This document shows, one piece after another, positions 43,026 to 63,237 of a stretch of DNA of 64,000 nt. The DNA comes from Eubacterium sp. Lineage in GTDB: Bacteria > Bacillota > Clostridia > Lachnospirales > Lachnospiraceae. Under the pieces are notes generated by a model that worked only from the letters and a program-made list of their open reading frames with translations, was not told the DNA's origin and ran no database searches. Made by a program: the position numbers and the translations under genes. Position 1 is the first letter of the stretch. The number at the start of each line of letters is the position of its first letter. Location: positions 1 through 64,000 of the forward strand of contig JAFYHN010000055.1 in the NCBI GenBank assembly GCA_017539165.1, written 5' to 3'.

Positions 43026-44063
43026 CTATACAACACTCATAAGTGAATCAATAATCTTTTTGTGTTTCCACTCAAGCTGAATACGGTCTAACAATCCAAA
43101 CGAATTCCATTCAAATGTATTATATTGATTATTATCCCATATTATACAAGTTATATTTCGCTTTCTACATTCATCAACATAAAATTTTATATATTCAGCT
43201 CTATCGTTTTCATTATCTTTGTCAATAGTTCCGAATTCACCTATAACTATAGGACGTTTCTTTTTAGCTGCCGCATTACTTAAAGAATTCAATACGTTTA
43301 TGAGATCTTCTTTTTCTTCTTTCGTTCCCCATACATTTGTTTCATCTGGAACCATACAGAAAAAATATGGATGATAAGCATGAATGGATATAATTATATG
43401 CTCATCATCATTCGGAATCTCCAGATCATTTACAGCTATATCACTTGCTTTCGCTCCATATACCGGAATAATAATTGTCCTATCTGCATTATTACTGCCT
43501 GTTTTTCTTATTGTTTCTACTGCAGCTTTATTTAATATATTTATTATTTCCCTGGCTTCTTTAGTTCCTTCATTCCACTCAAACTCCGTTCCGATCAACC
43601 TGACTTCATTCATTGTCTCAAAAATCAAATGATAATCATAATCCTTAAAATATTCTGATACCTGTTTCCATATGGATTCAAGAATAGCTATTCTTTCATC
43701 CAAATTATCTATAACCGGAATAAGCCAATCATCCTCATGATGAGCATCAATTATCACATACAGCCCCTCTTCATAAACATAATCTACTACTTCTTTTACT
43801 CTTTTCAACCACTCAGGATCTATCTGATAATTGTTATTTGAATCTATTTTTTTCCACCATGTTACAGGAACTCTGATAGTATTAAACCCAGCTTCTTTTA
43901 CCTTTAAAATCATCTCTTTTGTCGTGACTGGATTGCCCCAATACTCCTCAAACTCTTTTATTGTTGCAGTATCTTTGTTTTCTGGGGCTGTAGCATCCAG
44001 ACTATTCCCTAAATTCCAGCCAACCTTCATATCTCTTATAGTTTCAAATATGTCATTGTTCAT
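43026..44063 (-). CDS. GH5 endoglucanase-like enzyme without signal peptide
   Basis: 345 residues covering just the GH5 barrel. Marks: GWNLGNSLDA, NTIRVPVTW, IIDAHHEDDW, acid/base Glu in FETMNEVR, IHAYHPYFF, nucleophile Glu in IGEFGT and a C-terminal CIIWDNNQ Trp. The pattern is that of GH5 subfamily 4 (beta-glucanase, xyloglucanase). There is no signal peptide or membrane anchor, so it should act on imported oligosaccharides in the cytoplasm. It lies 41 bases after the DinB-like gene, at the end of the biosynthetic block; it may be a host gene rather than part of the pathway. Confidence 0.88.
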   Translation of the reverse strand: MNNDIFETIRDMKVGWNLGNSLDATAPENKDTATIKEFEEYWGNPVTTKEMILKVKEAGFNTIRVPVTWWKKIDSNNNYQIDPEWLKRVKEVVDYVYEEGLYVIIDAHHEDDWLIPVIDNLDERIAILESIWKQVSEYFKDYDYHLIFETMNEVRLIGTEFEWNEGTKEAREIINILNKAAVETIRKTGSNNADRTIIIPVYGAKASDIAVNDLEIPNDDEHIIISIHAYHPYFFCMVPDETNVWGTKEEKEDLINVLNSLSNAAAKKKRPIVIGEFGTIDKDNENDRAEYIKFYVDECRKRNITCIIWDNNQYNTFEWNSFGLLDRIQLEWKHKKIIDSLMSVV

Positions 44064-44104
44064 TAAATATCCACCTTTTTCAGAATAATCTAAATGATAA
44101 TCCT

Positions 44105-44818
44105 TCAGTCAATAATCGATAAATAATCTATGCAGGCAGGCAAATGCATCATATGATGACATGTCATTGGGGTTAATATCATCCCACCTCTCGTTAATCT
44201 TCCCCAGAATACAAGCAACCAAACCGAACGAAAATCCGTAGTAACTCCACCCACTTCAAGTATCTTCATAACCCAATCTTCTGGCACCATGGATTTAATC
44301 TCATCTAAAGTCAGTTTCTCTATGATAGCACGGGTATTCTTACCAACTGCGATCATATATTCATGCAAAGCATCTACATTTATCTTTTGTCCGAATTCCC
44401 GTATCTCTTCAGGCTCTAATGCATTTCCTGTATCAGTAATAATTGCTCCGATCTTATTCTGCCATTCCTCATCAAAGATCTGCTCCTGATCAGCCATTAA
44501 TATATTACTGACTAGATCTTCAATACGATATGCATGCCAGAACTGCCAACACAAAGGAACCATATCTGTCCCCGCATAATGAAGATCTGTATCCCATATT
44601 TGTCTCGGAACCATATCGTTTTGATTCCCTTTTAACATGTAATCCAAAACATAATCAGCAACCGTTTTTTCGGAACCTCCAGATACCTCACAAGGATGAA
44701 CCATAGCATGAACCTCTAATGTAAGTTCCTTTATCTTTTCCAGATTTTCTCCAGATAATGCTGTTTTTAATTCTTCGTATTTATTTTCAAATACAGAATA
44801 CAATTGTTTCTTGATCAT
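44105..44818 (-). CDS. DinB-like four-helix protein
   Basis: 237 residues. The histidine pattern HAMVHPCE near residue 42 and TCHHMMHLPACID near the C-terminus fit the DinB/YfiT-like metal-binding four-helix bundle, with Trp-rich helices (WQFWHAYRIEDLV, SVWLLVFWGRLTRGG). Such proteins include thiol transferases and other nickel or zinc enzymes; the function here is unknown. 62 bases separate it from the BtrH-like gene, so it may be the last gene of the long operon. Confidence 0.6.
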   Translation of the reverse strand: MIKKQLYSVFENKYEELKTALSGENLEKIKELTLEVHAMVHPCEVSGGSEKTVADYVLDYMLKGNQNDMVPRQIWDTDLHYAGTDMVPLCWQFWHAYRIEDLVSNILMADQEQIFDEEWQNKIGAIITDTGNALEPEEIREFGQKINVDALHEYMIAVGKNTRAIIEKLTLDEIKSMVPEDWVMKILEVGGVTTDFRSVWLLVFWGRLTRGGMILTPMTCHHMMHLPACIDYLSIID

Positions 44819-44880
44819 TTTTATTATCCCTATTGATTATATGCTATACTTAAAATATCAAAATTTTTTTCAACTCATAT

Positions 44881-45870
44881 TCAATTAAATTTGAATATAG
44901 TAATATTATCAAGTTCTTCTAATTCTTCTCGAAATTTATCCCAAACATACATCTCTTTATCAAAAAGTTCCTGCACCCTATCATTTATAATTTTAATTTT
45001 CTGATCTAAGTTAGTCTGAACATATAACATATTTACTTTATATCGAATCATCAGCCAATCATTTGCCAATTCTTCCGTATATCCAATTATTCTTTCAGAA
45101 TTTTCTCCTTTTATAATTCCTCGATTTCGTAATTCTTTAAAAAGCATGTTATTTGCCTGTAGCCTCTGAACAATCCTTCCTAAGTGAACGCTATTTAAAT
45201 CTTCATAAGCATGTTTTTTATACTCTATTTCTTCCATTTTCCAATAATAACTCTTCTTAACTTCTTTGAGATTATTTAATCTTTCAAATGTATTTTCTAA
45301 TAACATGTCCCTTGTTATATCTTGTATTTTTACATCTAGATTGATTTCACACCATTTAGTATTGATTCCACCTTCCATTCCTTTTTTTACTGATGTCAGA
45401 AAACTGTCTGAATCAATTGTAAATATTCCATATGTTTTATCCATATTTACATCAAAAACATAAAACAAATCTTCATCTTTATCATACTTCTGAATTAATG
45501 TTGAATGATACCAATGATCTCTACCATGGCATAAATTTTCTTTAATCCAATAATATAAATCAACCCCTACAAAAACGTATTTTCTTTCATCAAGAAGGCG
45601 TTTTATCTCCTTCATGAATTGCTCATCATTTTCATATTTTACGTCGACTTTATTGGCAAACATCTCCCCAACAATATCCCATCTTGTGAACGTTTCTAGG
45701 ATTGTATGTTCTCCTGAAGATGTTTCAACCAATCTATTACGATAATAATAATCATTATTTAATGCTATATTTCTATACTTTCTATCAATAGTTTGTAAAA
45801 TAGATAAATATAAATTTCCTTTACAATCAAACCATATATCGTCATATGCTTGAACTTTTGTTATATCCAT
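44881..45870 (-). CDS. BtrH-like cysteine acyltransferase
   Basis: 329 residues. Residues about 8-165 match the pattern of the butirosin BtrH N-terminal domain (PF14399-like): an N-terminal Cys (Cys16 in FDCKGNLYLSIL), GVDLYYW, then HWYHSTLIQKYD (His122) and FYVFDVN (Asp140), a plausible Cys-His-Asp set. BtrH moves an acyl group from an acyl carrier protein to an aminoglycoside amine. The C-terminal half is helical and charged. Located in the same operon as a carrier protein and an aminoacyl-carrier ligase, it is the likely release or transfer enzyme. Ribosome site GGGGGAG. The family call is from motif memory. Confidence 0.65.
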   Translation of the reverse strand: MDITKVQAYDDIWFDCKGNLYLSILQTIDRKYRNIALNNDYYYRNRLVETSSGEHTILETFTRWDIVGEMFANKVDVKYENDEQFMKEIKRLLDERKYVFVGVDLYYWIKENLCHGRDHWYHSTLIQKYDKDEDLFYVFDVNMDKTYGIFTIDSDSFLTSVKKGMEGGINTKWCEINLDVKIQDITRDMLLENTFERLNNLKEVKKSYYWKMEEIEYKKHAYEDLNSVHLGRIVQRLQANNMLFKELRNRGIIKGENSERIIGYTEELANDWLMIRYKVNMLYVQTNLDQKIKIINDRVQELFDKEMYVWDKFREELEELDNITIFKFN

Positions 45871-45888
45871 TTGGCTCCCCCTATATAT

Positions 45889-46863
45889 TTATGCCATCAA
45901 AACCTTTAAGATATTGTCCTTTAATAATTCTTTCTGTTCTTTAAGAACTCTGTAAAAATCATTTGCTAATTCCAAACTAATCATATTATCCCATTCCATT
46001 TTCATTAGCTGTACCTCAAGAGTCGGATATTTCGAACAAAAATATTGAAAATTCTTATACATATCACTGTTTTCGACCTTACTTCTTGGATGCTCTTGAT
46101 GATAGTTTTTGGCATCAGAATCAAAATGAAAAACGAAGCCCTGCAAAAATAATTGATAAGAGAAATCTATATCCTCAATACCATATCCTTTGTAGTTTTC
46201 ATCATATTCAAGAGCTTTATTACACAAAGTTCTGTCAAATGCCATATTTCCACCAAATGCCCTACTCCAACCTAAATAGAATCCATTTAATTCTTCTCCA
46301 TATCTATCAACCATATCAACTAAACGACTTTCCGTATAATCGGAAAGAAAGTATTTATTTATTACTTCGTCATAATTATCTCTTATATCTTGAGCTGTAA
46401 ACATTTGTTTCTCAGTCAGTTCCAACAATTCAGGATACAATGTATATATTTTAAACTCATCTATAAATTTGTACTTTACATCACGCATGAAAAAAGATAA
46501 TATCAAACACTCCTTACCAACATTTACACATTTTTCACCCGAATCTAATTTCTTTTTATGACTATATACAAAATCTTTACAAGGTATTCTATCATCATCT
46601 GTTATAATAATATAATCCCCTTTAGCAAGCTCCAAAGTAGCTTTTCTAACCTTTGAAATTCCTATTTTTTCATATTTGGCATAACAAATATTTAAATCGT
46701 TCTTATAGCTATCTATTATTTCTTTTGTATTATCAGTACTTCCATCATCAATTATAACTATTTCAAAGTCTTTATATGATTGTTGTTGATATCCGGCTAA
46801 CGTTAAATCTAAATACTTTGCTTTATTATGTGTTGTCATAACAACTGAAATCTTTTTTTCCAT
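45889..46863 (-). CDS. Family 2 glycosyltransferase
   Basis: 324 residues. GT-A fold: SVVMTTHNKAKYLDLTLAGYQQQ, VIIDDGSTDNTKEII, the metal-binding ITDDDRIP (DxD type), and a C-terminal acceptor-side motif NMAFDRTLCNKALEYDENYKGYGIEDIDFSYQL. This resembles GT2 enzymes with a galactosyltransferase-like C-terminal half. Soluble, no membrane helix. It could add a sugar to the cluster product, or act in an envelope polymer. Start after AAGGAGAAGG; ten bases after the ligase gene. Confidence 0.85.
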   Translation of the reverse strand: MEKKISVVMTTHNKAKYLDLTLAGYQQQSYKDFEIVIIDDGSTDNTKEIIDSYKNDLNICYAKYEKIGISKVRKATLELAKGDYIIITDDDRIPCKDFVYSHKKKLDSGEKCVNVGKECLILSFFMRDVKYKFIDEFKIYTLYPELLELTEKQMFTAQDIRDNYDEVINKYFLSDYTESRLVDMVDRYGEELNGFYLGWSRAFGGNMAFDRTLCNKALEYDENYKGYGIEDIDFSYQLFLQGFVFHFDSDAKNYHQEHPRSKVENSDMYKNFQYFCSKYPTLEVQLMKMEWDNMISLELANDFYRVLKEQKELLKDNILKVLMA

Positions 46864-46872
46864 ACCTTCTCC

Positions 46873-47994
46873 TTATTTTCCTATATAGTCTCTCACTTGT
46901 TCTGGCCAATTTTTAGTACACAAGCCATATTGATGGATAAACGCAATAATACAGCGTTCAATACCAAACCCAATACATCCTGATTCCGTATATTGGTTTC
47001 CTTCCTTTGAAAAATGAAATCGATTGGCAAATGTACTCCCATGCAAATTGAACGATGCACACGCAATTGTCTCTTCTGGACTACTTGATAAACGCAATTC
47101 ATATTTCACTTTAAATTTCTTTTGAATCTTTCGATAACTTTGTAGGGCTGGCAGAACAAACGGATCACTTGCTATCTCCACTTTAAACTTTAATCCAATA
47201 TTTTTAAGCTTCTCAATTACTCTTTTTAATAACTCTTCTCTTACCTTATACACATATTCTTTATCACCTATGAAAACAATCTCTCGAACGTTATAATCCC
47301 TTAATCTATGAAGTTCATCCCAATTAAGTCTTCCCTCATTCCGAAAAACATTTTGTCTAAAAGAGAAAATACTGTCTTCTTTTAATACTTGTCCTCTTAA
47401 TTCTTTATAGAGTGAAAAACATGCAGATGGAGATAACGCAAATTTAGCCTCACTTAAATATGGTTTTAAATTTCTTTCTTCTGCTGCCTTCTCTATCTTC
47501 TCAAAATTATTCATTGATTCCATAATATCCATGCATAGCATGGGATGTTGAGGCGAATTAATTAAATATCCAGTATCTATCAAAGTATCCATTTCTATAC
47601 TCGTCGGGTACTTTTTTAATATCACTGGCATATCATCTAATATAGAAACAAATAGTTGATCAAAAAACTCAAAAAGTTTAATTCCTGTTTGATCTAAAAC
47701 TATACTTCCATCATAATACTTCTTTACTATATCCCCCTGTAGTACTTCATCATCTGTCCAATATCTATCTTGTTGTTCAGTAGAATAATAAATCTCATCG
47801 TCCGTTTTCTCTTTTCTTTTTTGAAACTCTATAATTGATTTATTTAGTTCCTCTTTTTCAACTTCATCATCGCAAAGTAATTTTATTTTTCTACCTACAA
47901 CTTCATATGTTATTATTTTATCCGATATAAAACAGATACTTCTTCTAATGTCATCATCTATATCACAATTCATATCAAATTGTACAACCCTCAT
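46873..47994 (-). CDS. Amino acid:carrier-protein ligase (seryl-tRNA synthetase homologue)
   Basis: 373 residues. A class II synthetase core is visible: motif 2 FRNEGR..LHRLRDYNVREIVFIG and motif 3 GCIGFGIERCIIAF. There is no tRNA-binding coiled-coil arm. Candidate zinc ligands Cys192, Glu238 and Cys340 have spacings of 46 and 102, close to the Cys-Glu-Cys site of known amino acid:carrier ligases, which load an amino acid onto a phosphopantetheine carrier instead of a tRNA. A carrier protein lies in the same operon (56370). The substrate amino acid is not predictable here (Gly, Ala or a small amino acid in known cases). The N-terminal 130 residues are divergent. Confidence 0.78.
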   Translation of the reverse strand: MRVVQFDMNCDIDDDIRRSICFISDKIITYEVVGRKIKLLCDDEVEKEELNKSIIEFQKRKEKTDDEIYYSTEQQDRYWTDDEVLQGDIVKKYYDGSIVLDQTGIKLFEFFDQLFVSILDDMPVILKKYPTSIEMDTLIDTGYLINSPQHPMLCMDIMESMNNFEKIEKAAEERNLKPYLSEAKFALSPSACFSLYKELRGQVLKEDSIFSFRQNVFRNEGRLNWDELHRLRDYNVREIVFIGDKEYVYKVREELLKRVIEKLKNIGLKFKVEIASDPFVLPALQSYRKIQKKFKVKYELRLSSSPEETIACASFNLHGSTFANRFHFSKEGNQYTESGCIGFGIERCIIAFIHQYGLCTKNWPEQVRDYIGK

Positions 47995-48024: not shown

Positions 48025-48954
48025 TTATATAAAAATGTCTGATGCTTTTAAAAATATCGATACATCAGCTCTATCATGAATTGGTGCATTCTTATCAGGA
48101 TTAATAGAAATAACTTTTTTACAATTAACTATACCTACCAAATGTTGGATCATCCCAGAAATACCAATAGCGATATAGCAATTACAAGAAATACTTTTCC
48201 CACTTTGTCCTACTTGCCGGGAATAAGGAATCACACCCGATTCAACCAATGGCCGGGAACACACAATCGGAATCGATTGTTTATTAGCATACTCCATTAT
48301 TTTGGTTCTATCTCTTTCACCTACACCTCTACCTATTCCTATAACCACCCCACTCATATCATATGATTCTGTATAATACTCATTTCTAAATACGACATCA
48401 TTCAATTCTTCAGAAACATTTATATAATTAATATCAGCAATTCTTTTTCTTATTTGGGGAACAATATCTGTCGGTGCCTGTATACTTGATATTTGAATCT
48501 TTGATTTACATACAATCTTTGCCAGTAAATTATTATATGTAGTAGCTCTCTTATAAAATATGTCACCATCTAAATTCTCTAGCGATAGAACATCTGCTGT
48601 TACTCCCGCATTAAATTTTCCAGATAACCAGGCACATATAGATCTTCCAATAATACTTGACGGTGTAAAAATATAATCACACACTTGATCACTTAAAAAT
48701 CCATATACCAACTCACAATATCTATAATTGGATAACTTTTCATTATTACGCATTTTCATGACAAAAATGTTATCACATACATTTTGTAGTTCTTCATTAC
48801 ATAACTCAAACACATTTTCTGTAATCAAAACATTTACTACATCAGAAATACCACATACCGTATTTCTCACATACAAAATTGTGTAGATAAATGGGGCAAA
48901 ATTATATTCATTTTTGTCATAACTATCGCAAATCACATATATGCTCTTTGACAT
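48025..48954 (-). CDS. etfA: Electron transfer flavoprotein alpha subunit-like
   Basis: 309 residues, normal EtfA size. The C-terminal FAD-binding block is intact: IGIGRGVGERDR, CSRPLVESGVIPYSRQVGQSG, ISCNCYIAIGISGMIQHLVG, ISINPDKNAPIHDRADV. The N-terminal half is divergent. With the next gene it would carry electrons from the adjacent acyl-CoA dehydrogenase-like enzyme to a quinone or bifurcating partner. Confidence 0.9.
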   Translation of the reverse strand: MSKSIYVICDSYDKNEYNFAPFIYTILYVRNTVCGISDVVNVLITENVFELCNEELQNVCDNIFVMKMRNNEKLSNYRYCELVYGFLSDQVCDYIFTPSSIIGRSICAWLSGKFNAGVTADVLSLENLDGDIFYKRATTYNNLLAKIVCKSKIQISSIQAPTDIVPQIRKRIADINYINVSEELNDVVFRNEYYTESYDMSGVVIGIGRGVGERDRTKIMEYANKQSIPIVCSRPLVESGVIPYSRQVGQSGKSISCNCYIAIGISGMIQHLVGIVNCKKVISINPDKNAPIHDRADVSIFLKASDIFI

Positions 48955-48972: not shown

Positions 48973-49683
48973 TCAATAAATATTTATGTTTTCACTCAAT
49001 ACCTTTCGTGCCATATCAACATCAAATACTTCTTGTCGTTCTTTATGTCTTGATTGTATTCTATCTGCCTGAACTACCTGCGAAAAAACATTAATCTTTT
49101 CGTTTTTTTCAAATCTAATCTCTTCAGCGTTAATAATATGAATATCCGGCATATTTTCTTTGACATTAAACATGTTGGGCATACCTAAAAAAACAAGATC
49201 ATCCGATAATATATTTGAACATGTAATCACACAAGGCGATTTCATATTTATTACTTCATTAAAATAATCTAAACGCTGAACACATGATAAAGATTCTCCA
49301 ACAGATATACTAACCACATTTGATGCGAACGGAATATTTAATATTGAAGCAATCGATACTGGCACATGTGCCGTTTCTCCAAATCTCGATTTGTAATTTC
49401 CTATAACAATGTCATATTTATATTTCATTAAAAATCTACTTATAATTGTTGCGGTCAAAAATGTATCTGCTCCAGCAAATTTTTCATCACTTAACAGATA
49501 GAAATTTCGAATAGGATAATCACTGCATCTTTCAATTCTCTTAATTGCTTCATTTCTGTCCATAGTCAAACAGTCTATATTTACATTCTCATAACTTTGT
49601 CTTATCGCATTTGCAATAATTAAAGGATTTAATTCGTCCTCAATATAATCATCACTTAGTCTTAACAACACTAATACATTCAT
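48973..49683 (-). CDS. etfB: Electron transfer flavoprotein beta subunit-like
   Basis: 236 residues. EtfB layout: MNVLVLLRLSDDYIEDELNPLIIANAIR, a central LLSDEKFAGADTFLTATIISRFL and GETAHVPVSIASILNIPFASNV. It is shorter and more divergent than housekeeping EtfB, and the usual AMP-loop DG...Q signature is weak. Directly follows the dehydrogenase gene (five-base gap), supporting a dedicated redox partner role. Confidence 0.82.
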   Translation of the reverse strand: MNVLVLLRLSDDYIEDELNPLIIANAIRQSYENVNIDCLTMDRNEAIKRIERCSDYPIRNFYLLSDEKFAGADTFLTATIISRFLMKYKYDIVIGNYKSRFGETAHVPVSIASILNIPFASNVVSISVGESLSCVQRLDYFNEVINMKSPCVITCSNILSDDLVFLGMPNMFNVKENMPDIHIINAEEIRFEKNEKINVFSQVVQADRIQSRHKERQEVFDVDMARKVLSENINIY

Positions 49684-49688: not shown

Positions 49689-50816
49689 TTATCCTTTTAC
49701 CCCGATCAACTTCGCAATATTATATAATTGCATTTCACTGGTACCTGAATAAATTTTGGCTCCTAAACTATCTCTAACTTCTTGTTCTATTCCAGATTCT
49801 TTACAATAGCCATATGCTCCATATATCTGCATCGCATCAAGGCACAACTGAGCATAACTTTCTCCAACATAATATTTGTATACAGAACTCTCTAAGAAAG
49901 TTATTTTTCCACTTTCCTTTATCGATATTATCTTTTCTAAATACGCCTCTCCCAACTCAATAGCAACTTTCATTTTAGCTATTTTTTCAGAAATCATCTG
50001 ATACTCACCAATTGATTTTCCAAACTGCTTTCTTTGATTCGCATATTCTATGCAATCATTCATAATCCTATTCATTTTCCCAAGATGCGTAGAAAAACTG
50101 ATACATTTTTCCCAATCAAACGCCATATTCCCAACTAAGCTGCCCATTCCGATTGTTCCAATCACTCTATTTCGAGGAACAACACAATTATTGAAAGTTA
50201 TCTCACTCATCATACAGGACTCTAGCCCCATCTTATGAATAGTCTTACCTATTTTCACTCCTTTATCATCACGCTTTACAAGTATAGCTGTATATCTGTT
50301 TTGTCCCATCTCAGCATTTTTAGCAACTACTACTATTAAATCCGCCACTGACCCATTTGAGATATACATTTTTGAACCATTAATAACAATCTTATCTTCC
50401 TCCACCTTGCAACTTGTGCCCATGTTATATGCATCAGATCCAGAATTTGCTTCAGTAATTGCATATGCTCCCACATATTTTCCTTGAATTATACCAGATC
50501 CAAATTCCTCTTTAATTTTTTTAGATGCCATTTTCGGAAATATGCCTAAATACAAAATCAGACTATTACATATCGAAAAAACGAATCCGTTGTCATTAAA
50601 ATAATAACCAATCCATTTTAACAATTTCATTATATCTCCTATAGATTCAGCCATACCGCCCATTTCTTTAGGAAGCAAATTAGCTATAATTCCAAATTCC
50701 CCACATTTTTTCCATGCTTCCTTTGAAAACTCATTTCTAGGTAACTTGTTTACATATTTCTCAGAAAAAGCTTCTATCCTTTTTTTGATAATTTCATCCT
50801 TTTCAGCTATTTTCAT
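49689..50816 (-). CDS. Acyl-CoA dehydrogenase-like flavoprotein
   Basis: 375 residues from ATG 50816, whose ribosome site (GGAG) lies in the end of the upstream gene. FAD/substrate blocks: GAYAITEANSGSDAYNMGTSC, INGSKMYISNGSVADLIVVVA, ANQRKQFGKSIGEYQMI, and IYGAYGYCKE. The usual catalytic Glu of short-chain enzymes (YEGT) is Ser here (IYSGTSEMQ), while a Glu is present in FDWEKCIS, the position used by isovaleryl- and long-chain-type enzymes. The substrate may be an aminoacyl or acyl group on the carrier protein, by analogy with prolyl-carrier oxidases; this is inference. It should introduce an alpha,beta double bond. Confidence 0.88.
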   Translation of the reverse strand: MKIAEKDEIIKKRIEAFSEKYVNKLPRNEFSKEAWKKCGEFGIIANLLPKEMGGMAESIGDIMKLLKWIGYYFNDNGFVFSICNSLILYLGIFPKMASKKIKEEFGSGIIQGKYVGAYAITEANSGSDAYNMGTSCKVEEDKIVINGSKMYISNGSVADLIVVVAKNAEMGQNRYTAILVKRDDKGVKIGKTIHKMGLESCMMSEITFNNCVVPRNRVIGTIGMGSLVGNMAFDWEKCISFSTHLGKMNRIMNDCIEYANQRKQFGKSIGEYQMISEKIAKMKVAIELGEAYLEKIISIKESGKITFLESSVYKYYVGESYAQLCLDAMQIYGAYGYCKESGIEQEVRDSLGAKIYSGTSEMQLYNIAKLIGVKG

Positions 50817-50817
50817 T

Positions 50818-56347: not shown

Positions 56348-56369
56348 TTTCAAATCTCCATACAATTTA

Positions 56370-56621
56370 TTAACTCTCTATTTTCTGTTCAATTAAATTA
56401 CATAAACGACTCAAGCTAGAAAAATCATCTAATTCTATATTGCTATCTACCAAATCTACATCAAATTGCTCTTCCACAAATGCTAAAAACTTAACAATTC
56501 CTAAAGAATCTAATATATTTCCTCCCAAAATATCTACATTCTCATCTTTTTCAAGTAACTCCTTACTTTCTGCACTAGCCTCACTTAAAAGATACTCTTT
56601 TACAACTGTCTTAATTTCCAT
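56370..56621 (-). CDS. Stand-alone acyl/peptidyl carrier protein
   Basis: 83 residues, four-helix carrier fold. The phosphopantetheine site is Ser39 in ILDSLGIVKF, followed by VEEQFDVDLVDSNI. The only carrier protein in the window. It lies among the HemN-like and methyltransferase genes and, by inference, holds the intermediate that the ligase, dehydrogenase, radical SAM and BtrH-like enzymes use. No phosphopantetheinyl transferase is encoded nearby. Confidence 0.9.
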   Translation of the reverse strand: MEIKTVVKEYLLSEASAESKELLEKDENVDILGGNILDSLGIVKFLAFVEEQFDVDLVDSNIELDDFSSLSRLCNLIEQKIES

Positions 56622-56633: not shown

Positions 56634-57344
56634 TTACTTAATCGCTAATATCCCTTCAAAACACATACTTTTAAAAAATTTATATATTTTTTTAAAACCA
56701 GCCTTTTTAAGTAAATCTACATTTTCCAGACTGGTATTAGGGACTAATACTCCTTTAATTGCTAATGATTTAGCCATTACCTCTTCATAACTAAAACCTT
56801 TAGATATTTTAAATTCACTATATACCATGTTTGAGATATCTTGGAACAAACCAGACTGTTCTTGTACTTTTTCAAACATTATAAACGCCCCACCATAATT
56901 CAAACTGTTATATACTTTATTGACTATACTTTGCCTTTGACTGGGATTTATAAACTGTAATGTATAATAAGATGTAAACAAATCTGTCTGTTCAAAACTA
57001 TAAGTTAACAAATCTGCCTCTTCAAATTTTACATTTGCAAATTCCTTACTTTGCTCACTAGCTTTCTCTACCATTTCTGGAACAATATCCAATCCACGCC
57101 ATTGTATTTTTTTTCCTTTATGATAGGCAGCTAACTCTCTTAAAAGCTCACCAGTTGATGCTCCTAAATCATAGCAAATACTTCCATTTCGACAAAAATA
57201 ATCACTTAGATAACAAATGATCCTATGACCTTCCGTATAAGACATAATTGAATTAGATATGTGATCGTGAAAATGATCAACTAATTGCTTTCCATGGAAA
57301 TCCCAGGAAGCATGATCTTTTTGAATTCCATCTCCAACTAACAT
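56634..57344 (-). CDS. SAM-dependent methyltransferase
   Basis: 236 residues. Class I fold: SAM motif ICYDLGASTGELLREL, WRGLDIVPEMVEKA, FEEADLLTY, FTSYYTLQFINPSQRQSIVNKV and YGGAFIMFEKV. Related to the tRNA cmo5U methyltransferase/CmoA-like and small-molecule enzymes. In cyclopropane-forming pathways a HemN-like radical SAM enzyme works with a methyltransferase like this, so a joint action is conceivable. Its ATG overlaps the preceding HemN-like gene stop. Confidence 0.85.
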   Translation of the reverse strand: MLVGDGIQKDHASWDFHGKQLVDHFHDHISNSIMSYTEGHRIICYLSDYFCRNGSICYDLGASTGELLRELAAYHKGKKIQWRGLDIVPEMVEKASEQSKEFANVKFEEADLLTYSFEQTDLFTSYYTLQFINPSQRQSIVNKVYNSLNYGGAFIMFEKVQEQSGLFQDISNMVYSEFKISKGFSYEEVMAKSLAIKGVLVPNTSLENVDLLKKAGFKKIYKFFKSMCFEGILAIK

Positions 57345-58693
57345 TATTCTGATTCCTCTCCTTTTACATTACTCGTCTTTTGCGAACGAATCATATTTAA
57401 TAAATTTATAAAATCGCGTTCTTTTTGCTCCTTGCTATAAAAAAGTCTGGATATATTTCCCGCAAATATCTTTCCGGTATTGGTAAGCTTCAGTTTTGAC
57501 CCTTCCCAACGAACATATTCGCATTCCAAAAGGTTTTTTATTGTTTTTTCAACATTCTCACCACCGATAATTTCAGACTTATCTATCCACGTCATAGAAG
57601 GAAAAAAAACCATTTTACGAAGGTCATCATCTTCATCACTTGAAACATGACCGTACTCTACAGCATTTTTTGTTATACCAATCATATTAATGTACTGATC
57701 TATTTGATTAGCATTTCTAAAACTATGTTTTTCCACATAACTACGTGCAGATGGTCCTATACCGAGCATAGGATATCCTCTTAAATATCTTTTATATCCA
57801 ATAAACGGTTCATTTTTTAATGAATACAAATTTGAAGACACCTGACTATATTCTGTATTTTCAAAAAACTGTGATACTTGAGAATACATTTCAATTTCTC
57901 TAGCACGACTGGGTTTGATTTCATAATTGCCTTCATAAATCTTTTTAAAAAAGGAAGTGTCAGGATAAATATCCATCCCATGAATATCGATATACTGAGG
58001 TTTTAACTTTATTGCGGTATTTAAATCTTCAAATAACAATTCCTTAGATTGATTGGGCATGTTGTACATCATATCAAACGAATAATCAGTAATCGGCGAA
58101 TTCTTTAATCGCTCAACCAAGTCATATATCTCCTCGTTACGAACAGATATATTCATTGTTTTCTTTAATTTTGAATCAAACGTTTGTATACCAAAACTGA
58201 TCCTATCAACCTTATTCTCAATTAAACCATCTATATATTCTGGTTTGAGTAAATTTTTAACTGTACCTTCCATGGAAATACCACATAATTCACTCAAATC
58301 AAACAAATTAGAAATAGATTTAAATATTTTATTCCAATATTTTATTGGTAATGATGAAGGATCCCCACCACCAATACATATTGTACTTACCTTCCGTTCT
58401 TGAAAGTATTTTTTTTCAGAAAAATACTCTAATTCCTCAATGATAGAATTAACAAATTTATCCAGTTTATCCTCAGAAAAATCACACATTGCTTCCTTAT
58501 AATATGGACAAAATTCACACAATTCGCTACATATCGGAATTTGAATAAATATACGAAATGGTAACTTGTTAGAGGATTCTTCATCCAAAAAATCCAACCA
58601 TCTCTCTGAATCTTTTATTAAATCTCTTTCTTCACATATAACAGGATATATCCATGTTTCTGTCATTCTCTTATCAAAGATTATTTTTTTCAC
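57344..58693 (-). CDS. HemN-like radical SAM enzyme 2
   Basis: 449 residues. Cys55, 59, 62 in ICSELCEFCPYYK; TICIGGGDPSSL; RISFGIQTFDSKLKKTM; DMMYNMPNQ; PMLGIGPSARSYVE. Same architecture and length as the neighbouring paralogues, but the C-terminal tail lacks NPYNQD. The His of the HIP motif before the cysteines is Gln here (IQIPIC). Overlaps both neighbours by one to four bases, so tight coupling. Confidence 0.85.
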   Translation of the reverse strand: MKKIIFDKRMTETWIYPVICEERDLIKDSERWLDFLDEESSNKLPFRIFIQIPICSELCEFCPYYKEAMCDFSEDKLDKFVNSIIEELEYFSEKKYFQERKVSTICIGGGDPSSLPIKYWNKIFKSISNLFDLSELCGISMEGTVKNLLKPEYIDGLIENKVDRISFGIQTFDSKLKKTMNISVRNEEIYDLVERLKNSPITDYSFDMMYNMPNQSKELLFEDLNTAIKLKPQYIDIHGMDIYPDTSFFKKIYEGNYEIKPSRAREIEMYSQVSQFFENTEYSQVSSNLYSLKNEPFIGYKRYLRGYPMLGIGPSARSYVEKHSFRNANQIDQYINMIGITKNAVEYGHVSSDEDDDLRKMVFFPSMTWIDKSEIIGGENVEKTIKNLLECEYVRWEGSKLKLTNTGKIFAGNISRLFYSKEQKERDFINLLNMIRSQKTSNVKGEESE

Positions 58694-60048
58694 TTTCCCG
58701 TTCCCATATTATCTTGATTATAAGGATTTGTTTTATCTATCATTGACTTAACTACCGTTTTTAAATTATATTCCTTTTGTTTTTCACTAAAGAAATATGA
58801 AGCAACGTTTCCACAATATATTTTTCCACGATGAGTCAATTTCAAAACATCATTTTCCCACTCTACATAACCATTTTTATGTAATATTTCTATTTTATCT
58901 AAGATTTTTTTGTCTTGAGGAATGTATTCCTTCTCTATATATCCAAGCTGCGGGAAAAATACCATTACTCTTTCCATATCCTCTTCTTGAGTTGCTATAT
59001 TTCCAGCTTCAATTGGGAATTTATATTCTGAAATTCTCTTAATATACTCTTTCACCGAACAACAATCTCTATAGCTTCTTCTTTCAATATACGTTCTTGC
59101 AGAAGGACCTATTCCTAAAACGGGATTTGATCTAGACTGATTAATAAACGTTTTGAACGGTTTTTCTCTCTTTTTAGAGAAGTAAATTGAGCCTAAATGC
59201 TTATACCCTTTCTTCTCATAACCCTCAATATACTTTTCATACATCAAAACTTCCATCTCATTCGTCGGTTTAGTGGAAAAGTATTTTCCTTCATTAATTA
59301 CCTGTTCAAATTTAGTATTGGGATATACATTGAGATTATGAATATCAATATACTCTGCGTCCATCTTTATACTTTTCTCAATATCCACATCAATGTCTTC
59401 TAATGTTTGATCAGGGAAATTGTAAATCATATCAAATGAAAAGCAGTCTAGTCCTTTATTATGTAATAAGTCGGAAAGATTATATATTTCCTCTTCGGAC
59501 GGTTTTAAAAATACTTTTTTTCTAATATTCTCATTAAATGTTTGAACTCCGAAACTTAGATGTTTTCCATCTATACTTTTAAACCAATCTAACTTTTCTT
59601 CATTTGAAAGACTCCAAACATGTCCCTCTAATGACACAACAAAATCCTCAGTAATCGTAAAGTTCTTCACAACTGTATCTAATAATTCTTGAAGGTATTT
59701 AACATCAATTATTGCTCCGTCTCCGCCTCCGAAATATAAAGAGGTTACCTTGTTTTTCTTAAAAAACTCTGTTTCAGAATACATTTTCAATTCAGTCTTT
59801 ATAGCCTCAATCAATGGCTTAATATCATCATCACTTAAGGATGAATATCTCACCTTATAATAAGGACAAAAAAAACAAAATGAATTACAATACGGAATAT
59901 GAATATAGATATTTACAGGCAGATCATTCGATGGTGCTTGATTTAAATAACTCATAAAATCCGGAAGCATAATCTCATCGCTATAATACTTACTTATTCT
60001 TGGATATACCCAAACCTCTGTTTGACGTTCATTAAACAATTGCTCCAC
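58690..60048 (-). CDS. HemN-like radical SAM enzyme 3
   Basis: 452 residues. Cys54, 58, 61 in YCNSFCFFCPYYK; SLYFGGGDGAI; HLSFGVQTFNENIRKKV; DMIYNFPDQ; PVLGIGPSARTYIE; tail NPYNQDNMGTGK as in paralogue 1. The common SYRDCCSV / NYRNVCSV block indicates relatively recent duplication. Acts presumably on a carrier-bound or free intermediate of the cluster. Confidence 0.85.
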   Translation of the reverse strand: MEQLFNERQTEVWVYPRISKYYSDEIMLPDFMSYLNQAPSNDLPVNIYIHIPYCNSFCFFCPYYKVRYSSLSDDDIKPLIEAIKTELKMYSETEFFKKNKVTSLYFGGGDGAIIDVKYLQELLDTVVKNFTITEDFVVSLEGHVWSLSNEEKLDWFKSIDGKHLSFGVQTFNENIRKKVFLKPSEEEIYNLSDLLHNKGLDCFSFDMIYNFPDQTLEDIDVDIEKSIKMDAEYIDIHNLNVYPNTKFEQVINEGKYFSTKPTNEMEVLMYEKYIEGYEKKGYKHLGSIYFSKKREKPFKTFINQSRSNPVLGIGPSARTYIERRSYRDCCSVKEYIKRISEYKFPIEAGNIATQEEDMERVMVFFPQLGYIEKEYIPQDKKILDKIEILHKNGYVEWENDVLKLTHRGKIYCGNVASYFFSEKQKEYNLKTVVKSMIDKTNPYNQDNMGTGK

Positions 60049-60073
60049 TTACTCTTTATCCTCGCTTTCATTA

Positions 60074-61024
60074 TTAATTTACAAAAGAATTTTTAATATT
60101 AGGATTATATAGTTCCGTATTTAAATATCTTTCTCCCGTATCCGGAAGAAAAGCCACTATTTTCTTATCTTTATTCTCTGGTCTTTTTGCAAGTTCCATA
60201 GCGACCCACGTTGCTGCTCCTGATGATATCCCAGCAAAAATACCTTGTTTTTTAGCCAACGCTCTCGCTGTATCTAAGGCATCTTGATCCTCAACTTTAA
60301 TTACTTCGTCTAGCAAATCCCTATCTAGAATATCTGGAATAAACCCGGCTCCAATACCTTGAATTTTATGAGGACCTTTTTTTTCGCCAGATAAAACCGC
60401 AGATCCAGCTGGTTCTACACCAATAATTTTTATATCTGGATTTTTTTTCTTTAATAAATGACCAGTTCCAGTAATCGTTCCTCCGGTTCCTATTCCTGCC
60501 ACAAAAAAATCAATTTGCCCTTCGGTATCACTCCAAATTTCTTCTCCTGTAGTTAATTCATGGGCTAAAGGATTATTAATATTTGTTATTTGAGAAGGAA
60601 TAAATGCCTTGGGTAGTTCACTAGCAATTTTATCTGCTTCCAAAAAAGCTTTCTTCATTCCAAATACTCCTGGTGTTAATACCACCGTAGCACCCATAGC
60701 TTTAATATGATTAATCTTATCAATACTCATCGTATCTGGAATTACTAATATAATTTTTAACCCTAATGCCGATGCCACATGAGCTAATCCAATTCCTGTG
60801 TTACCACTTGTCCCCTCTACAATTGTTGTATCTTTGTCAATAAGCCCCTCTTCCATAGCTTTTTTTATCATATTATATGCGGGTCTATCTTTAGCACTTC
60901 CTCCAGGATTAAAACATTCTAATTTTGCTATCACTTCTGCATATAATTTTGAATTATCTACACTTGATAATCGTACTAATGGTGTATTTCCAATCAAATC
61001 TATAACAGAATCATATATTCTCAT
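60074..61024 (-). CDS. cysK: Cysteine synthase family PLP enzyme
   Basis: 316 residues, full-length OASS-A type. PLP Lys in NPGGSAKDRPAYNMI, substrate loop EGTSGNTGIG, phosphate loop GIGTGGTITG, and the C-terminal SSGAA and FLPDTGERYL. In primary metabolism it makes cysteine from O-acetylserine and sulfide. Inside this cluster it may instead perform a beta-replacement on an activated serine to give an unusual amino acid (as SbnA-type enzymes do). No cysE is adjacent, which favours the specialised role only weakly. Confidence 0.85.
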   Translation of the reverse strand: MRIYDSVIDLIGNTPLVRLSSVDNSKLYAEVIAKLECFNPGGSAKDRPAYNMIKKAMEEGLIDKDTTIVEGTSGNTGIGLAHVASALGLKIILVIPDTMSIDKINHIKAMGATVVLTPGVFGMKKAFLEADKIASELPKAFIPSQITNINNPLAHELTTGEEIWSDTEGQIDFFVAGIGTGGTITGTGHLLKKKNPDIKIIGVEPAGSAVLSGEKKGPHKIQGIGAGFIPDILDRDLLDEVIKVEDQDALDTARALAKKQGIFAGISSGAATWVAMELAKRPENKDKKIVAFLPDTGERYLNTELYNPNIKNSFVN

Positions 61025-61070
61025 AATCCCTCTCCTATCTATTCACATTTTATTAAATGCATTATTCAAT

Positions 61071-61871
61071 TTATATTGACTTTAGCCATGTCACCGATTT
61101 TTCTATATACTCATACATGTCTTCTGCCCCATAATGTTCGATTGAGTATATTCCCTCGTATCCGATTGTCTTCAAAACATCAATTATTTCTTGTATATGA
61201 ATAGATCCAGATCCTACAGCACACGGATACAGTTTTCTTCCACTTACAGAAATAGTTGGTGCTTCATTTTTATTCTGAAGCATTGATCTATCCTTTAAAT
61301 GGACATGATGTACTTTATTCTTTAGCTTTTGGATATATTCCATTTCGTCTTCATCCCAAAATGCAAAATTTCCGGTATCAAAAACACATTTCAATGATTC
61401 ACATTGTTCAAGAAATAAGATAACCCCTTCACCTGATAGAGGTGACATAGAATTATCAAAAGTTTCAATTTCCACCGTCACATTTTTATCCTGAGCATAT
61501 TTACACAATATATTTATTCCCTGAATCATTTTATGTATCTGATTATCTTTTATATCATCACTCAACAACCCTGGCAGGATTAAAACCTCTTTTACTTCTA
61601 AGTCATTAGATATATCTATTATCTGATATTCCTTGTCATAATCCCCTTCTTTATTAAGATTACACTCATGACATATACATCCAATCTTCAGTCCGGAATC
61701 ATCCAGGATATTCATCGTTTGAGAATAATCGCTCAGTAGGAAACGAGAATTGAGATCAACATATTCCACACCCATGGTTCGAACAGTTTTTGCAGCCTCT
61801 TTAATCGAGATGTTTTTCTGTTCAGCCATAGACACTATATGATCATAAAAAATAGAGATTTTATTTTTCAT
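61071..61871 (-). CDS. Sugar phosphate isomerase/epimerase-like TIM-barrel protein
   Basis: 266 residues of the xylose-isomerase-like (AP endonuclease 2) superfamily. Candidate metal ligands: Glu in VEIETFD, Asp in CVFDTGNF, His in HVHLKD, Glu in YSIEHYGAEDMYEY. Its start overlaps the upstream radical SAM gene by 11 bases. Family members isomerise or epimerise sugars, inosose and related compounds, so it may supply or modify a sugar-like precursor. Substrate unknown. Confidence 0.75.
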   Translation of the reverse strand: MKNKISIFYDHIVSMAEQKNISIKEAAKTVRTMGVEYVDLNSRFLLSDYSQTMNILDDSGLKIGCICHECNLNKEGDYDKEYQIIDISNDLEVKEVLILPGLLSDDIKDNQIHKMIQGINILCKYAQDKNVTVEIETFDNSMSPLSGEGVILFLEQCESLKCVFDTGNFAFWDEDEMEYIQKLKNKVHHVHLKDRSMLQNKNEAPTISVSGRKLYPCAVGSGSIHIQEIIDVLKTIGYEGIYSIEHYGAEDMYEYIEKSVTWLKSI

Positions 61872-63237
61872 GTTCTCCGCTCTCCCACATCTCTCTAACG
61901 CAAGAACTTAACTTATCCAAATCATAGGCAAATGGTTGCATTTTTCTAATAGTCTTTTTATTATCACGCACGATCTCATAATTGTAATGATATGCACCTT
62001 CATAAGATATTCTCATCGTATAAAGAATACTGTACAACCACACCAGATACTTTCTTTCGTCGCTATTTAATATACTTGGGTAATCTACAGTTGTTGTATT
62101 TCCAAATGCAGTAAATAATTCAGGAGTAAGAAGTTTTTCATCAATGTCGAATTTGCAATCCTCGTACTCATTAAATATTGCATATGAACTATCAAGGTAA
62201 TCTGCAAACTTATATGTATTCTCTACTTTTTCCCATGTCTCTTCAGGAAATCCGACGATATAGAAGGCCATAGTAATGATTCCAAGTCCATTGGCGTACG
62301 CTATGATTTCCTTCATTCTTTCCGGTTTTCCTTTTACACTGTTGTATGTTTTCAGTATTTCTGCATCACCTGATTCAACACCAAAACAGATAAGGAACAC
62401 ACCTGCTTTATGTAACATCGTAATTAATTCTTCATCAAGACTTGAAAGTCGAGTCTCACATATCAACTGTACCTTTATATTCTGTTCTATTATCTTTTTG
62501 CAGAATTCCATAATTCTAGCTTTGTCCGAAGTGAAATACTGATCTCTGAACTGAATAACTTCCGCTCCCAGCTCTACTAGCTTTTTAACGTCTTCGACCA
62601 TTCGATCTACATCTCTGAATTCAACCTTTTCATAATAGAGTTTGTACGGACAATATGAACATGCCATCGGGCATCCTCTGCTCGCCTGTAGAGTAAGTCT
62701 TACCCTTTTTTCATCATCTAGATATCTTTTATAATTCACCAATGTATAATCAGGAGTAGGCATATCATTTATGCCTAAATTCTCCGAATTCGGATTCAGG
62801 TAATGTAAAGCAAATTCATCAATTGGCTCTTCGATAACCTGATTGATCTCATCAACGTTTTCGTCTATCCATTTCTTGATTATCTTTGACGCATGCCCAC
62901 CAATCTTTATTTCTGCCTCTGGGATTAACATTTTTATTCTTTTGAGAAGTTCTATATCAGAACGAATTGTAGGAGCAGTCGTTTTGAGAATAATCATGTC
63001 ATATTTTTTACCCTCGAGCTTTTTTAACAACTCATCTGGAAGCATCTTATCTTCTAGCACTGCATCAATAAACTCAACTTCATAATCCGGATTTTCTTTG
63101 AAAATAGTAGCCGCTGTAAGTAATGTTAAATCCGGAAATACATCGCGAGTATTTAAGTGTTCCCCAAGCTCACCATGTGCATCACTATGTATGGTTATTC
63201 CGTAATATGCTCTTAAAAATAATACCTTTTTTATCAT
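61861..63237 (-). CDS. B12-binding-type radical SAM enzyme, first gene of the cluster
   Basis: 458 residues from ATG 63237 (AAAGGATG upstream). N-terminal Rossmann domain with SDAHGELGEHLNT and KIGGHASKI, then the cysteines Cys189, 193, 196 (CPMACSYCPYK), VIQFRDQYFTSD, LICETRLSSLD, FLICFGVESGDAEIL and AFYIVGFPEETWE. This is the architecture of cobalamin-dependent radical SAM methyltransferases and related BchE-type enzymes; the cobalamin-binding His is not certain. Because it opens the operon, its promoter controls the set. Confidence 0.87.
   Translation of the reverse strand: MIKKVLFLRAYYGITIHSDAHGELGEHLNTRDVFPDLTLLTAATIFKENPDYEVEFIDAVLEDKMLPDELLKKLEGKKYDMIILKTTAPTIRSDIELLKRIKMLIPEAEIKIGGHASKIIKKWIDENVDEINQVIEEPIDEFALHYLNPNSENLGINDMPTPDYTLVNYKRYLDDEKRVRLTLQASRGCPMACSYCPYKLYYEKVEFRDVDRMVEDVKKLVELGAEVIQFRDQYFTSDKARIMEFCKKIIEQNIKVQLICETRLSSLDEELITMLHKAGVFLICFGVESGDAEILKTYNSVKGKPERMKEIIAYANGLGIITMAFYIVGFPEETWEKVENTYKFADYLDSSYAIFNEYEDCKFDIDEKLLTPELFTAFGNTTTVDYPSILNSDERKYLVWLYSILYTMRISYEGAYHYNYEIVRDNKKTIRKMQPFAYDLDKLSSCVREMWESGEHEK

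Follow-up and report, generated by a model that had tools for sequence, protein, structure and literature searches.

A candidate carrier-protein pathway rich in radical SAM enzymes in a Eubacterium genome

The 64,000-nt stretch of DNA analysed here (the window) carries a gene unit that may encode a dedicated pathway of an anaerobe, in which an unusual amino-acyl residue would be built on a carrier protein and then transferred; judged from the sequence, we hold the chances for and against this reading to be about equal. The observed basis of the proposal is the gene content, the retained catalytic residues and a core conserved in a second genus, represented by Paenibacillus sp. S150, and from it we infer the substrate, the product, the order of the steps and the acceptor.

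Layout and gene content of the unit

The open reading frame listing of the window contains 20 co-directional minus-strand genes between positions 43026 and 63261 that form one unit with intergenic distances of −14 to +62 bp, in agreement with an earlier note that described about 20 same-strand genes with tiny gaps or overlaps. The span given there, 43026..63237, corresponds to a real unit, but its last gene reaches 63261, with 63237 an alternative ATG start. The extent of 20 genes holds as well, except that an intact metK at the head (63300–64481), the first gene of the unit, was overlooked; it extends past the window. The gene island of the host, a bacterium related to rumen anaerobes, comprises 21 genes (20 plus metK). 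Profile searches confirmed the contents previously listed, namely the ligase, the acyl-CoA dehydrogenase and its ETF pair, five radical SAM proteins, the methyltransferase, the CysK-like enzyme, the isomerase, the GT2 and the ABC-2 exporter. The GH5 hydrolase and a 237-aa protein are members of the unit that had gone unnamed. Profile cut-offs are missed by the ligase, ACAD, PhpK, BtrH_N, CmoA and HutW assignments. From 3' to 5' of the unit, all on the minus strand, the features are:

43026..44063, minus strand, GH5 glycoside hydrolase (PF00150, 215.2 bits)
44105..44818, minus strand, 237-aa protein with a weak mycothiol-transferase (DinB-like) match (NF047843, 36.7 bits, cut-off 170)
44881..45870, minus strand, candidate BtrH-like papain-fold acyltransferase (BtrH_N, profile comparison)
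45889..46863, minus strand, family 2 glycosyltransferase, GT2 (PF00535, 84.3 bits)
46873..47994, minus strand, amino acid:carrier protein ligase, class-II synthetase-like (NF005479, PDB 3mey)
48025..48954, minus strand, ETF alpha (PF00766, 76.1 bits; 33% to S150)
48973..49683, minus strand, ETF beta (PF01012, 46.6 bits; 28% to S150)
49689..50831, minus strand, acyl-CoA-dehydrogenase-like aminoacyl-ACP dehydrogenase candidate, ACAD (PigA/RedW profiles, AnaB 4irn)
50818..52311, minus strand, PhpK-like (cobalamin-type) radical SAM methyltransferase candidate (TIGR04479, 344.6 bits, cut-off 600)
52349..53161, minus strand, ABC-2 exporter membrane subunit 1 (PF06182, 160.5 bits; 40% to S150)
53188..53973, minus strand, ABC-2 exporter membrane subunit 2 (PF06182, 51.3 bits; 30% to S150)
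53970..54971, minus strand, ABC exporter ATPase (PF00005, 102.5 bits; 46% to S150)
54980..56365, minus strand, HemN-like radical SAM protein RS_H1, candidate class C type (HutW, 203.5 of 400 bits)
56370..56621, minus strand, stand-alone carrier protein, ACP (Ser39 in LDSLGI motif)
56634..57344, minus strand, CmoA-like SAM methyltransferase (TIGR00740, 125.6 bits, cut-off 193.3)
57344..58693, minus strand, divergent HemN-like radical SAM protein RS_H2 (profile search, alignment)
58690..60048, minus strand, HemN-like radical SAM protein RS_H3 (PF04055; HutW, 164 of 400 bits)
60074..61024, minus strand, CysK-type beta-replacement enzyme (TIGR01139)
61071..61871, minus strand, xylose-isomerase-like TIM barrel, possible sugar isomerase (PF01261, 75.4 bits; weak IolE, 42.4 bits)
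61861..63261, minus strand, radical SAM protein RS_B of the BchE/AprD4/PhpK type (PF04055, 84.1 bits)
63300..64000 (to 64481 of the contig), minus strand, metK, SAM synthetase (TIGR01034, 605 bits, over the cut-off)

The unit is A+T-rich, with a GC content of 0.306 (43026–61871); the value is 0.385 in positions 1–43025 of the window, 0.41 in stretch L004 beyond 4481, and 0.398–0.435 in a convenience sample of eight other stretches of the genome. The pathway was probably acquired horizontally.

Conservation in other genomes

In Paenibacillus sp. S150, a distant relative, eleven window genes are clustered at 28–52% identity beside a BtrH_N protein that scores 41.9 bits, over the gathering score, and because this content is common to both genomes a chance juxtaposition is unlikely. 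The neighbourhood check thus found the core genes travelling together in S150, one other genome; the eleven-gene grouping is absent from all others of the 12 ligase loci. CysK lies within the S150 core, where its gene overlaps the PhpK-like gene by 4 bp. A blastp search of the 36 kb around this core gave no match to the methyltransferase, GT2, GH5, isomerase or an RS_B-type partner, so the corresponding steps do not appear to be core, and GT2, GH5 and the isomerase look accessory. The same stretch holds one HemN-like gene, and the best match of RS_B within it is the S150 PhpK-like protein.

Five other genomes carry members of the HemN-like group described below; they represent about three cluster types and were picked by match strength. 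All five have an ACP at most three genes away from the HemN-like gene (that of G431 recognised by eye). Only three have an adenylate-forming enzyme that close; counted from the HemN-like gene, it is the fourth gene in G1047 and the seventh in S150. The window type of exporter accompanies 8 of the 12 ligase loci. In Rhizobium binae, genes for an ACP, an ACAD, a ligase and a DUF1839 protein stand in a row.

That row would suit a surface or glycan decoration, in which the loaded and oxidised amino acid passes to an amino sugar and the radical SAM enzymes act on the sugar, not on the carrier-bound residue. The GT2, GH5 and isomerase genes of the unit point the same way, as do the glycosidase and liposaccharide genes near the ligase family, for which Iyer and colleagues predict amide ligation to a sugar (PMC2922099). 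We nevertheless regard this as improbable, given that radical SAM genes are part of the S150 core but the three sugar-related genes find no blastp match there, that the ACP keeps close to the HemN-like gene in the five genomes, and that the exporter recurs at most ligase loci.

Predicted amino acid activation and oxidation

The ligase matches PF00587 and scores 131.2 bits with NF005479, under the equivalog cut-off of 357. In the alignment with Bll0957 (PDB 3mey, E = 5.9e-26) its zinc triad, Cys192/Glu238/Cys340, falls on the three Bll0957 positions, which we take to be the published ligands 131, 176 and 279, fitting with an offset of 20 counted by hand. The zinc triad in this ligase family implies coordination of a primary amine. 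The carrier protein is encoded in the same operon. Its Pfam matches are weak (PP-binding, E = 0.013; PP-binding_2, E = 0.0083), as are those to OlsHI-ACP and AmcB, and its serine, Ser39, is invariant in nine of nine aligned carriers, which upholds the lone carrier protein reported earlier. As far as family membership and retained residues go, the view that an amino acid is held on this carrier is supported. The described ligases of the Bll0957 type have alanine, glycine or serine as substrate (PMC9437257).

The ACAD reaches 277.4 of 500 bits for PigA and 238.9 of 650 for RedW, missing the equivalog cut-offs of NF053553 and NF045652, and its best PDB match is AnaB (4irn; E = 6.6e-73 with the single sequence, 3.7e-91 with a profile). 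Glu241 aligns with the glutamate of AnaB and RedW, a position that is also Glu in the S150 ACAD and Ala in the RedW entry 6af6, and which we take to be the catalytic base. The proposed desaturation is thereby supported at family level, by an ACAD of the prolyl-carrier-dehydrogenase type accompanied by ETF.

As the nearest characterised relatives of the ACAD are prolyl-carrier dehydrogenases, proline could be the amino acid loaded; the ACAD and ETF would then yield pyrrole-2-carboxyl-ACP, the PhpK-like enzyme would act like CloN6 and methylate it, and transfer would fall to the BtrH-like protein. A pyrrole would also offer sp2 carbons to class C enzymes. The prolyl ligase of clorobiocin is of the AMP-binding type, which is absent from the Pfam matches of the 20 genes, and the zinc triad argues for a primary amine. 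Moreover, the ACAD lies far under both cut-offs, and the CysK of the S150 core would be left without a role. Precedents for the four steps, from activation through oxidation and methylation to transfer, exist in CloN4/N5/N3, CloN6 and CloN7 (PMC11218499), but on balance a pyrrole route is improbable.

Radical SAM proteins and methyltransferase

Three of the five radical SAM proteins are HemN-like. In a tree, a group of eight HemN-like proteins, three of them from the window, is split with 100/100 support from six HemN/HemW-like outgroup rows. A C-terminal N-Q/E-D motif is present in seven of the eight and in none of the outgroup rows; the CxxxCxxC cluster motif, present in all eight, is common to HemN/HemW in general. 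RS_H1 is 40% identical to its S150 counterpart and matches NocN best in the PDB (9p2u, E = 2.3e-25), with HemN next and nearly as close (1olt, E = 8.5e-24). RS_H3 has the C-terminal motif as NQD, and RS_H2 lacks it and has Phe in place of the second-SAM tyrosine. RS_H1 and RS_H3 retain this tyrosine, but so do all six outgroup rows, and its presence is therefore not specific to class C. In class C (HemN-like) enzymes the tyrosine stacks on the second SAM, and these enzymes move a C1 unit from SAM onto sp2 carbons (PMC12871812), which gives the radical alkylation previously suggested a concrete, predicted mechanism.

The PhpK-like protein is 39% identical to its S150 counterpart by blastp. A role as the PhpK P-methyltransferase is not supported: 344.6 of the 600 bits of TIGR04479 are reached, and phosphonate enzymes are absent from the Pfam matches of the 20 genes. 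RS_B scores 111.2 bits with BchE and 110.7 with PhpK, both under the cut-off; its cobalamin-type N-terminal fold is our reading of the sequence, where Pfam gives no match. The methyltransferase aligns with PDB 4gek (E = 1.4e-21), with Ser, in an alignment read by eye, at the CmoA arginine that we presume to be the carboxy-SAM residue. Together with the missed TIGR00740 cut-off (125.6 of 193.3 bits), this speaks against a CmoA carboxy-SAM synthase.

CysK and metK

The cluster CysK scores 405.3 bits with TIGR01139, over the cut-off of 350.95. Both it and the S150 CysK have Gln-Ile where the other cysteine synthases compared have Gln-Phe, namely all three other paralogues of the genome over the cut-off and four PDB entries (the best 4 of 21 matches); we take this position to be in the substrate pocket. 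The Phe to Ile change common to both cluster enzymes, and the place of CysK in the S150 core with its 4-bp overlap, count against a mere supply role for CysK and MetK, with an ordinary amino acid (glycine, alanine or serine) loaded and all else as in our preferred reading, with which this variant overlaps. Conversely, the score is that of a normal cysteine synthase, metK is host-like in GC (0.397) and has a second copy in the genome, to which it is 78.9% identical, and the substrates reported for such ligases are these amino acids (PMC9437257). A supply role is somewhat unlikely.

Predicted transfer, sugar-related genes and export

By itself the BtrH-like protein scores 14.1 bits with BtrH_N (E = 0.056), below the gathering score of 29.7. 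When combined with one homologue and compared, profile against profile, with a set of five BtrH-type proteins encoded at other loci, of which four exceed the gathering score and one falls short of it, it matches at 92.9% (E = 3.6e-07). Cys16, His122 and Asp140, which we read as a putative papain-type triad, are kept in the two-sequence alignment, in a region that aligns with the BtrH-type profiles. The BtrH-like assignment made earlier accordingly holds by profile comparison and retained residues, and not by the protein's own score. The window protein and the S150 BtrH_N protein are tied by profiles alone, blastp and phmmer giving no match. No signal peptide is evident by eye in GH5, and a Pfam search with the 237-aa protein gave no match. 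The exporter membrane pair belongs to the ABC2_membrane_6 family.

Relation to known systems

The gene combination had not been recognised from any described pathway, and no such pathway was found in a literature search covering few subscription papers. To our knowledge, the nosiheptide side-ring module has no ACAD, CysK or BtrH, and the clorobiocin module uses other ligase and transferase types and has no ETF pair or CysK. The butirosin partners are an ATP-grasp ligase, a PLP decarboxylase and a monooxygenase; these are absent from the Pfam matches of the 20 genes, which speaks against the butirosin pathway.

Bll0957-type systems of Bradyrhizobium and Rhizobium share a row of genes for a zinc-triad class-II ligase, a stand-alone ACP, an ACAD-like enzyme and a protein of papain fold. 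However, their partner is DUF1839, described as papain-like (PMC10318531), rather than BtrH_N, and the listed Rhizobium binae neighbours, from an incomplete plasmid gene table, include no ETF, radical SAM protein, CysK or exporter; the role of these systems is stated as unknown (PMC9437257). NosI/NosJ/NosN of nosiheptide combine an adenylating enzyme, a carrier and a HemN-like class C enzyme acting on a carrier-bound substrate (PMC5585349), but the substrate is an indolic acid, NosI is of the acyl-CoA-ligase type and the pathway is that of a thiopeptide. CloN1–CloN7 of clorobiocin oxidise, methylate and transfer a carrier-bound amino acid (PMC11218499), in that case proline, with two carriers. 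Butirosin BtrH and BtrI share acyl transfer off a carrier protein (PMC10318531), although the window protein lies below the Pfam cut-off. The CC-1065 cyclopropanase, in which HemN-like C10P forms a cyclopropane with the SAM methyltransferase C10Q (PMC6050322), was assayed on free compound 6 of CC-1065 biosynthesis, whereas the window methyltransferase is CmoA-like. Jaw5/Pfl2 of the polycyclopropanating PKSs are stand-alone, HemN-resembling and work with a carrier-bound chain, but a polyketide one, and have a Cx7CxxC motif against CxxxCxxC in the window (PMC13389473).

Proposed pathway

In the proposed carrier-based pathway, the cluster CysK would make a beta-substituted alanine or supply cysteine. 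The ligase, as its family and retained residues suggest, would activate the amino acid through its zinc-bound amino group and load the ACP. Passing electrons to ETF, the ACAD, which resembles prolyl-ACP dehydrogenases, would oxidise the acyl-ACP to give an sp2 carbon, on which RS_H1 and RS_H3 may place a methyl or methylene group from SAM, which metK would supply. The methyltransferase might close a ring, as C10Q does, and the PhpK-like enzyme might methylate a further carbon. NosN methylates a carrier-bound thioester (PMC5585349), a precedent weakened by work, cited in PMC12871812, that assigns it a peptide substrate in vivo. The BtrH-like enzyme would transfer the finished residue to an amine; the acceptor in this genome could perhaps be a glycoside formed through GT2, the isomerase and GH5, the weakest part of the proposal. 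The ABC transporter would export the product.

A more specific version, which we think unlikely, is a carrier route whose products would be amino acids with a cyclopropane or an added C-methyl group. In it, CysK would make the starting amino acid, ETF-linked desaturation of the aminoacyl-ACP would be followed by class C methylenation at the resulting double bond, jointly with the methyltransferase, and BtrH would install the residue. If true, this route would yield ring-bearing amino acids installed by BtrH.

Extent and composition of the gene unit

The closely spaced gene run described in the earlier note was found: 20 minus-strand genes (43026–63261) are separated by intergenic distances of −14 to +62 bp. 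The contig has a size of 100,709 bp, and the unit runs one gene past the window:

63300–64481, minus strand, intact metK, the added gene of the unit beyond the window

A terminator-like hairpin (contig 64594–64629) precedes metK, although the signal is weak, with two such matches in the stretch against 2.2 in shuffles. A SAM riboswitch ahead of metK was rejected, as the window and L004 (the same contig, reaching past the window end) gave locally sub-threshold matches only and one match at gathering score, a TPP riboswitch elsewhere (L004 15732–15836), which is close to thiamine genes upstream on the contig.

The genome carries two copies of metK, one of them in the cluster, and four genes of the cysteine-synthase type, again with one in the cluster; the latter four all pass the cysteine-synthase cut-off. 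The GC content is 0.306 in window 43026–61871, compared with 0.385 in window 1–43025 and 0.398–0.435 across eight other stretches of the genome. The low value, set against the host-like GC content of the cluster metK (0.397) and its 78.9% identity to the other copy, suggests an acquired island adjoining a duplicated host metK. Directly downstream of the unit, on the same strand (window 38661–42784, GC 0.30–0.34), are genes for an ABC exporter, a LytTR response regulator and a GHKL histidine kinase; the kinase and regulator may control the island, possibly in a quorum-sensing manner, and the exporter could possibly provide extra export.

A core shared with Paenibacillus

A profile search of genome contigs with a three-sequence ligase alignment and two peptide patterns yielded 12 ligase loci, with further relatives possible; L038 and L042 are contigs of the query members L025 and L024, leaving ten new loci. 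At one locus, L033 of Paenibacillus sp. S150, homologues of eleven window genes follow one another on a single strand.

Window genes (minus strand) with homologues in the S150 row, and identity
Exporter ATPase, 46%
Exporter membrane subunits, 30 and 40%
HemN-like radical SAM enzyme, 40%
50818–52311, PhpK-like radical SAM protein (RS_Phpk), 39%
60074–61024, CysK, 52%
56370–56621, acyl carrier protein (ACP), 35%
49689–50831, acyl-CoA dehydrogenase (ACAD), 43%
ETF beta, 28%
ETF alpha, 33%
46873–47994, ligase, 40%

Immediately upstream of the S150 core, the same strand encodes a BtrH_N protein, which passes the cut-off with 41.9 bits. The proposed check that these genes travel together, a neighbourhood search from the ligase, recovered eleven window genes and a BtrH_N protein side by side, and this common core makes chance juxtaposition unlikely. 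An exporter trio of the window type is present at eight of the 12 ligase loci (S150 and seven of the 11 others), with the ATPase split in L043. At the 11 loci other than S150, blastp with a threshold of 1e-3 matched none of the window's radical SAM proteins, nor its CysK or ACAD. Of 61 near genomes, 2 have a ligase relative, as do 8 of the 392 genomes searched in the order (own genome counted), and the HemN-like profile at E 1e-80 matched the own genome alone among 397 family genomes. These counts show that the cluster is rare, and the case that its genes travel together rests on two genomes.

In L032, an archaeal-type SAM synthetase (2793–4004, by eye) lies near a Tissierellales ligase sharing 47% identity with that of the window. 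A Streptomyces plasmid locus has an ACP, an ACAD and a ligase relative within an NRPS/PKS-type cluster.

Ligase, carrier and associated enzymes

The ligase scores 131.2 bits against the amino acid:carrier ligase family NF005479, under the cut-off of 357. Its nearest solved relative is Bll0957 (E 5.9e-26), and alignment with the published Bll0957 ligands places the zinc ligands at Cys192, Glu238 and Cys340. The window ACP is weak in Pfam, and its serine is invariant in all nine aligned carriers. The ACAD is nearest to AnaB, a prolyl-ACP dehydrogenase (PDB entry 4irn, E 6.6e-73), and its Glu241 aligns with a position occupied by Glu in the RedW entry 5zw0 but by Ala in 6af6. Because it falls under both the PigA and the RedW cut-offs, the ACAD is regarded as a relative and is not called a prolyl enzyme.

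The BtrH-like protein (44881–45870) by itself is under the Pfam cut-off; profile–profile comparison with five BtrH-type proteins, four of them over the BtrH_N cut-off, gave 92.9% (E 3.6e-07). Its Cys/His/Asp set is kept in one close homologue, and no direct match to the S150 BtrH_N protein was obtained by blastp or phmmer. Both cluster CysKs, those of the window and of S150, have Ile beside a conserved glutamine of the substrate pocket. This position is Phe in all three remaining genome paralogues that pass the cut-off and in the best four of 21 PDB alignments, and the change from Phe to Ile in both cluster enzymes suggests that the role of CysK may go beyond supply.

Radical SAM enzymes

Three of the radical SAM enzymes, RS_H1 (54980–56365), RS_H2 (57344–58693) and RS_H3 (58690–60048), are HemN-like. 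Among solved structures, RS_H1 comes closest to the class C methylase NocN (E 2.3e-25), with HemN (E 8.5e-24) nearly level. In a tree whose rows were selected by strength of match, the HemN-like group (the three window proteins and relatives from five other genomes, n = 8) splits with 100/100 support from six HemN/HemW-like rows, among them the outgroup rows G971 and G1015 (phylum matches, approximately 30% identity). This tree excludes L066, a viral-contig row with 16 aligned residues that is not a homologue; with L066 included, the group forms no single clade (two changes, 10% of bootstrap trees). Viral contigs gave eight loci at 22–30% identity in one search, four of which, including L066, were tried as outgroup rows, and zero matches in another; plasmid searches returned 93, 387 and 49 records, every one below 60% identity.

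In NocN and HemN, the second SAM is stacked against a tyrosine (PMC12871812). This tyrosine is present in seven of the eight group members (Phe in RS_H2) and in all six outgroup rows, and since the latter also keep it, it is a general mark of HemN-type enzymes. Seven of the eight group members, and none of the six outgroup rows, carry a C-terminal N-Q/E-D motif.

RS_Phpk scores 344.6 bits against TIGR04479, under the cut-off of 600, and its identification as PhpK proper was rejected; moreover, three of the four matches among 344 genomes of the family of S150 adjoin very large NRPS-like proteins (by eye). RS_Phpk and RS_B (61861–63261) are similar to cobalamin-type enzymes. As both lack a B12-binding Pfam match, their use of cobalamin is something we infer.

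The HemN-like group in other genomes

The five other genomes with the HemN-like group represent about three cluster types, or about four with the window. G1047 comes from 4 matching genomes among 398 of the phylum at E 1e-45 (a count that takes in the own genome and two weaker matches), G1168 from 2 of 46 genomes (G1047 being the other), and G431 and G747 from 3 of 344, S150 being the third. G1047 (L062 10614–20000) and G1168 (L074 3522–14429) share one type, comprising a cobalamin-type radical SAM enzyme, a prephenate-dehydratase-like protein, a HemN-like enzyme, an ACP, a subtilase-like protein, an AMP-binding enzyme and an aminotransferase; this is another uncharacterised carrier-protein amino-acid cluster. 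G747 (L079 3381–19830) and G431 (L078 8137–16938) have a second type in common, with polyketide-synthase-like and QueD-like proteins (by eye), a HemN-like enzyme, an ACP (by eye in G431) and a protein weakly matching the G1047 AMP-binding enzyme. G747 also has a confirmed BtrH_N protein and QueE-like and FolE-like genes (by eye), and these loci are possibly a deazapurine–polyketide hybrid cluster. All five genomes encode an ACP no more than three genes away from the HemN-like gene, and an adenylate-forming enzyme is the first gene from it in G431 and G747, the third in G1168, the fourth in G1047 and the seventh in S150.

Proposed pathway and its relatives

Class C enzymes act on sp2 carbons (PMC12871812). 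Methylation of a carrier-bound thioester was demonstrated for the class C enzyme NosN (PMC5585349), although work cited in PMC12871812 gives NosN a peptide substrate in vivo. A cyclopropane is made by C10P with the methyltransferase C10Q (PMC6050322). The ACAD, served by its own ETF, would naturally supply an sp2 carbon on an amino acid bound to the carrier. Together these points lead to a proposal in which the ligase would load an amino acid on the carrier, ACAD/ETF would desaturate the bound residue, one or more HemN-like enzymes would add C1, and the residue would be transferred to an acceptor and then exported. The GT2 (45889–46863), GH5 (43026–44063) and xylose-isomerase-like (61071–61871) genes of the unit make a glycoside a possible acceptor in the window genome. 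Sugar amidation was predicted for the amino acid:carrier ligase family by Iyer and colleagues (PMC2922099). In the 36 kb around the S150 core, blastp found no match to the window GT2, GH5 or isomerase.

The cluster resembles NosI/J/N in its ligase, carrier and class C enzyme, the CloN module in activation, oxidation, methylation and transfer (PMC11218499), and butirosin in transfer by BtrH. Should a ring be formed, it also resembles the C10P/C10Q or Jaw5-type cyclopropanases (PMC13389473). By membership tests it belongs to none of them. Its nearest simple relative is a Rhizobium binae run of ACP, ACAD, ligase and DUF1839, and the literature searched, by title or opening of abstract, yielded no description of this gene combination.

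The core joins an amino acid:carrier ligase to a candidate aminoacyl-ACP dehydrogenase with its ETF, HemN-like and PhpK-like radical SAM enzymes, CysK and a BtrH-type protein. Its testable set comprises six soluble proteins: the ligase, the ACP, the ACAD, two ETF subunits and one HemN-like enzyme. The HemN-like group, being near carriers in about four cluster types with the window counted, provides a mining handle for C1-alkylated or cyclopropanated residues.
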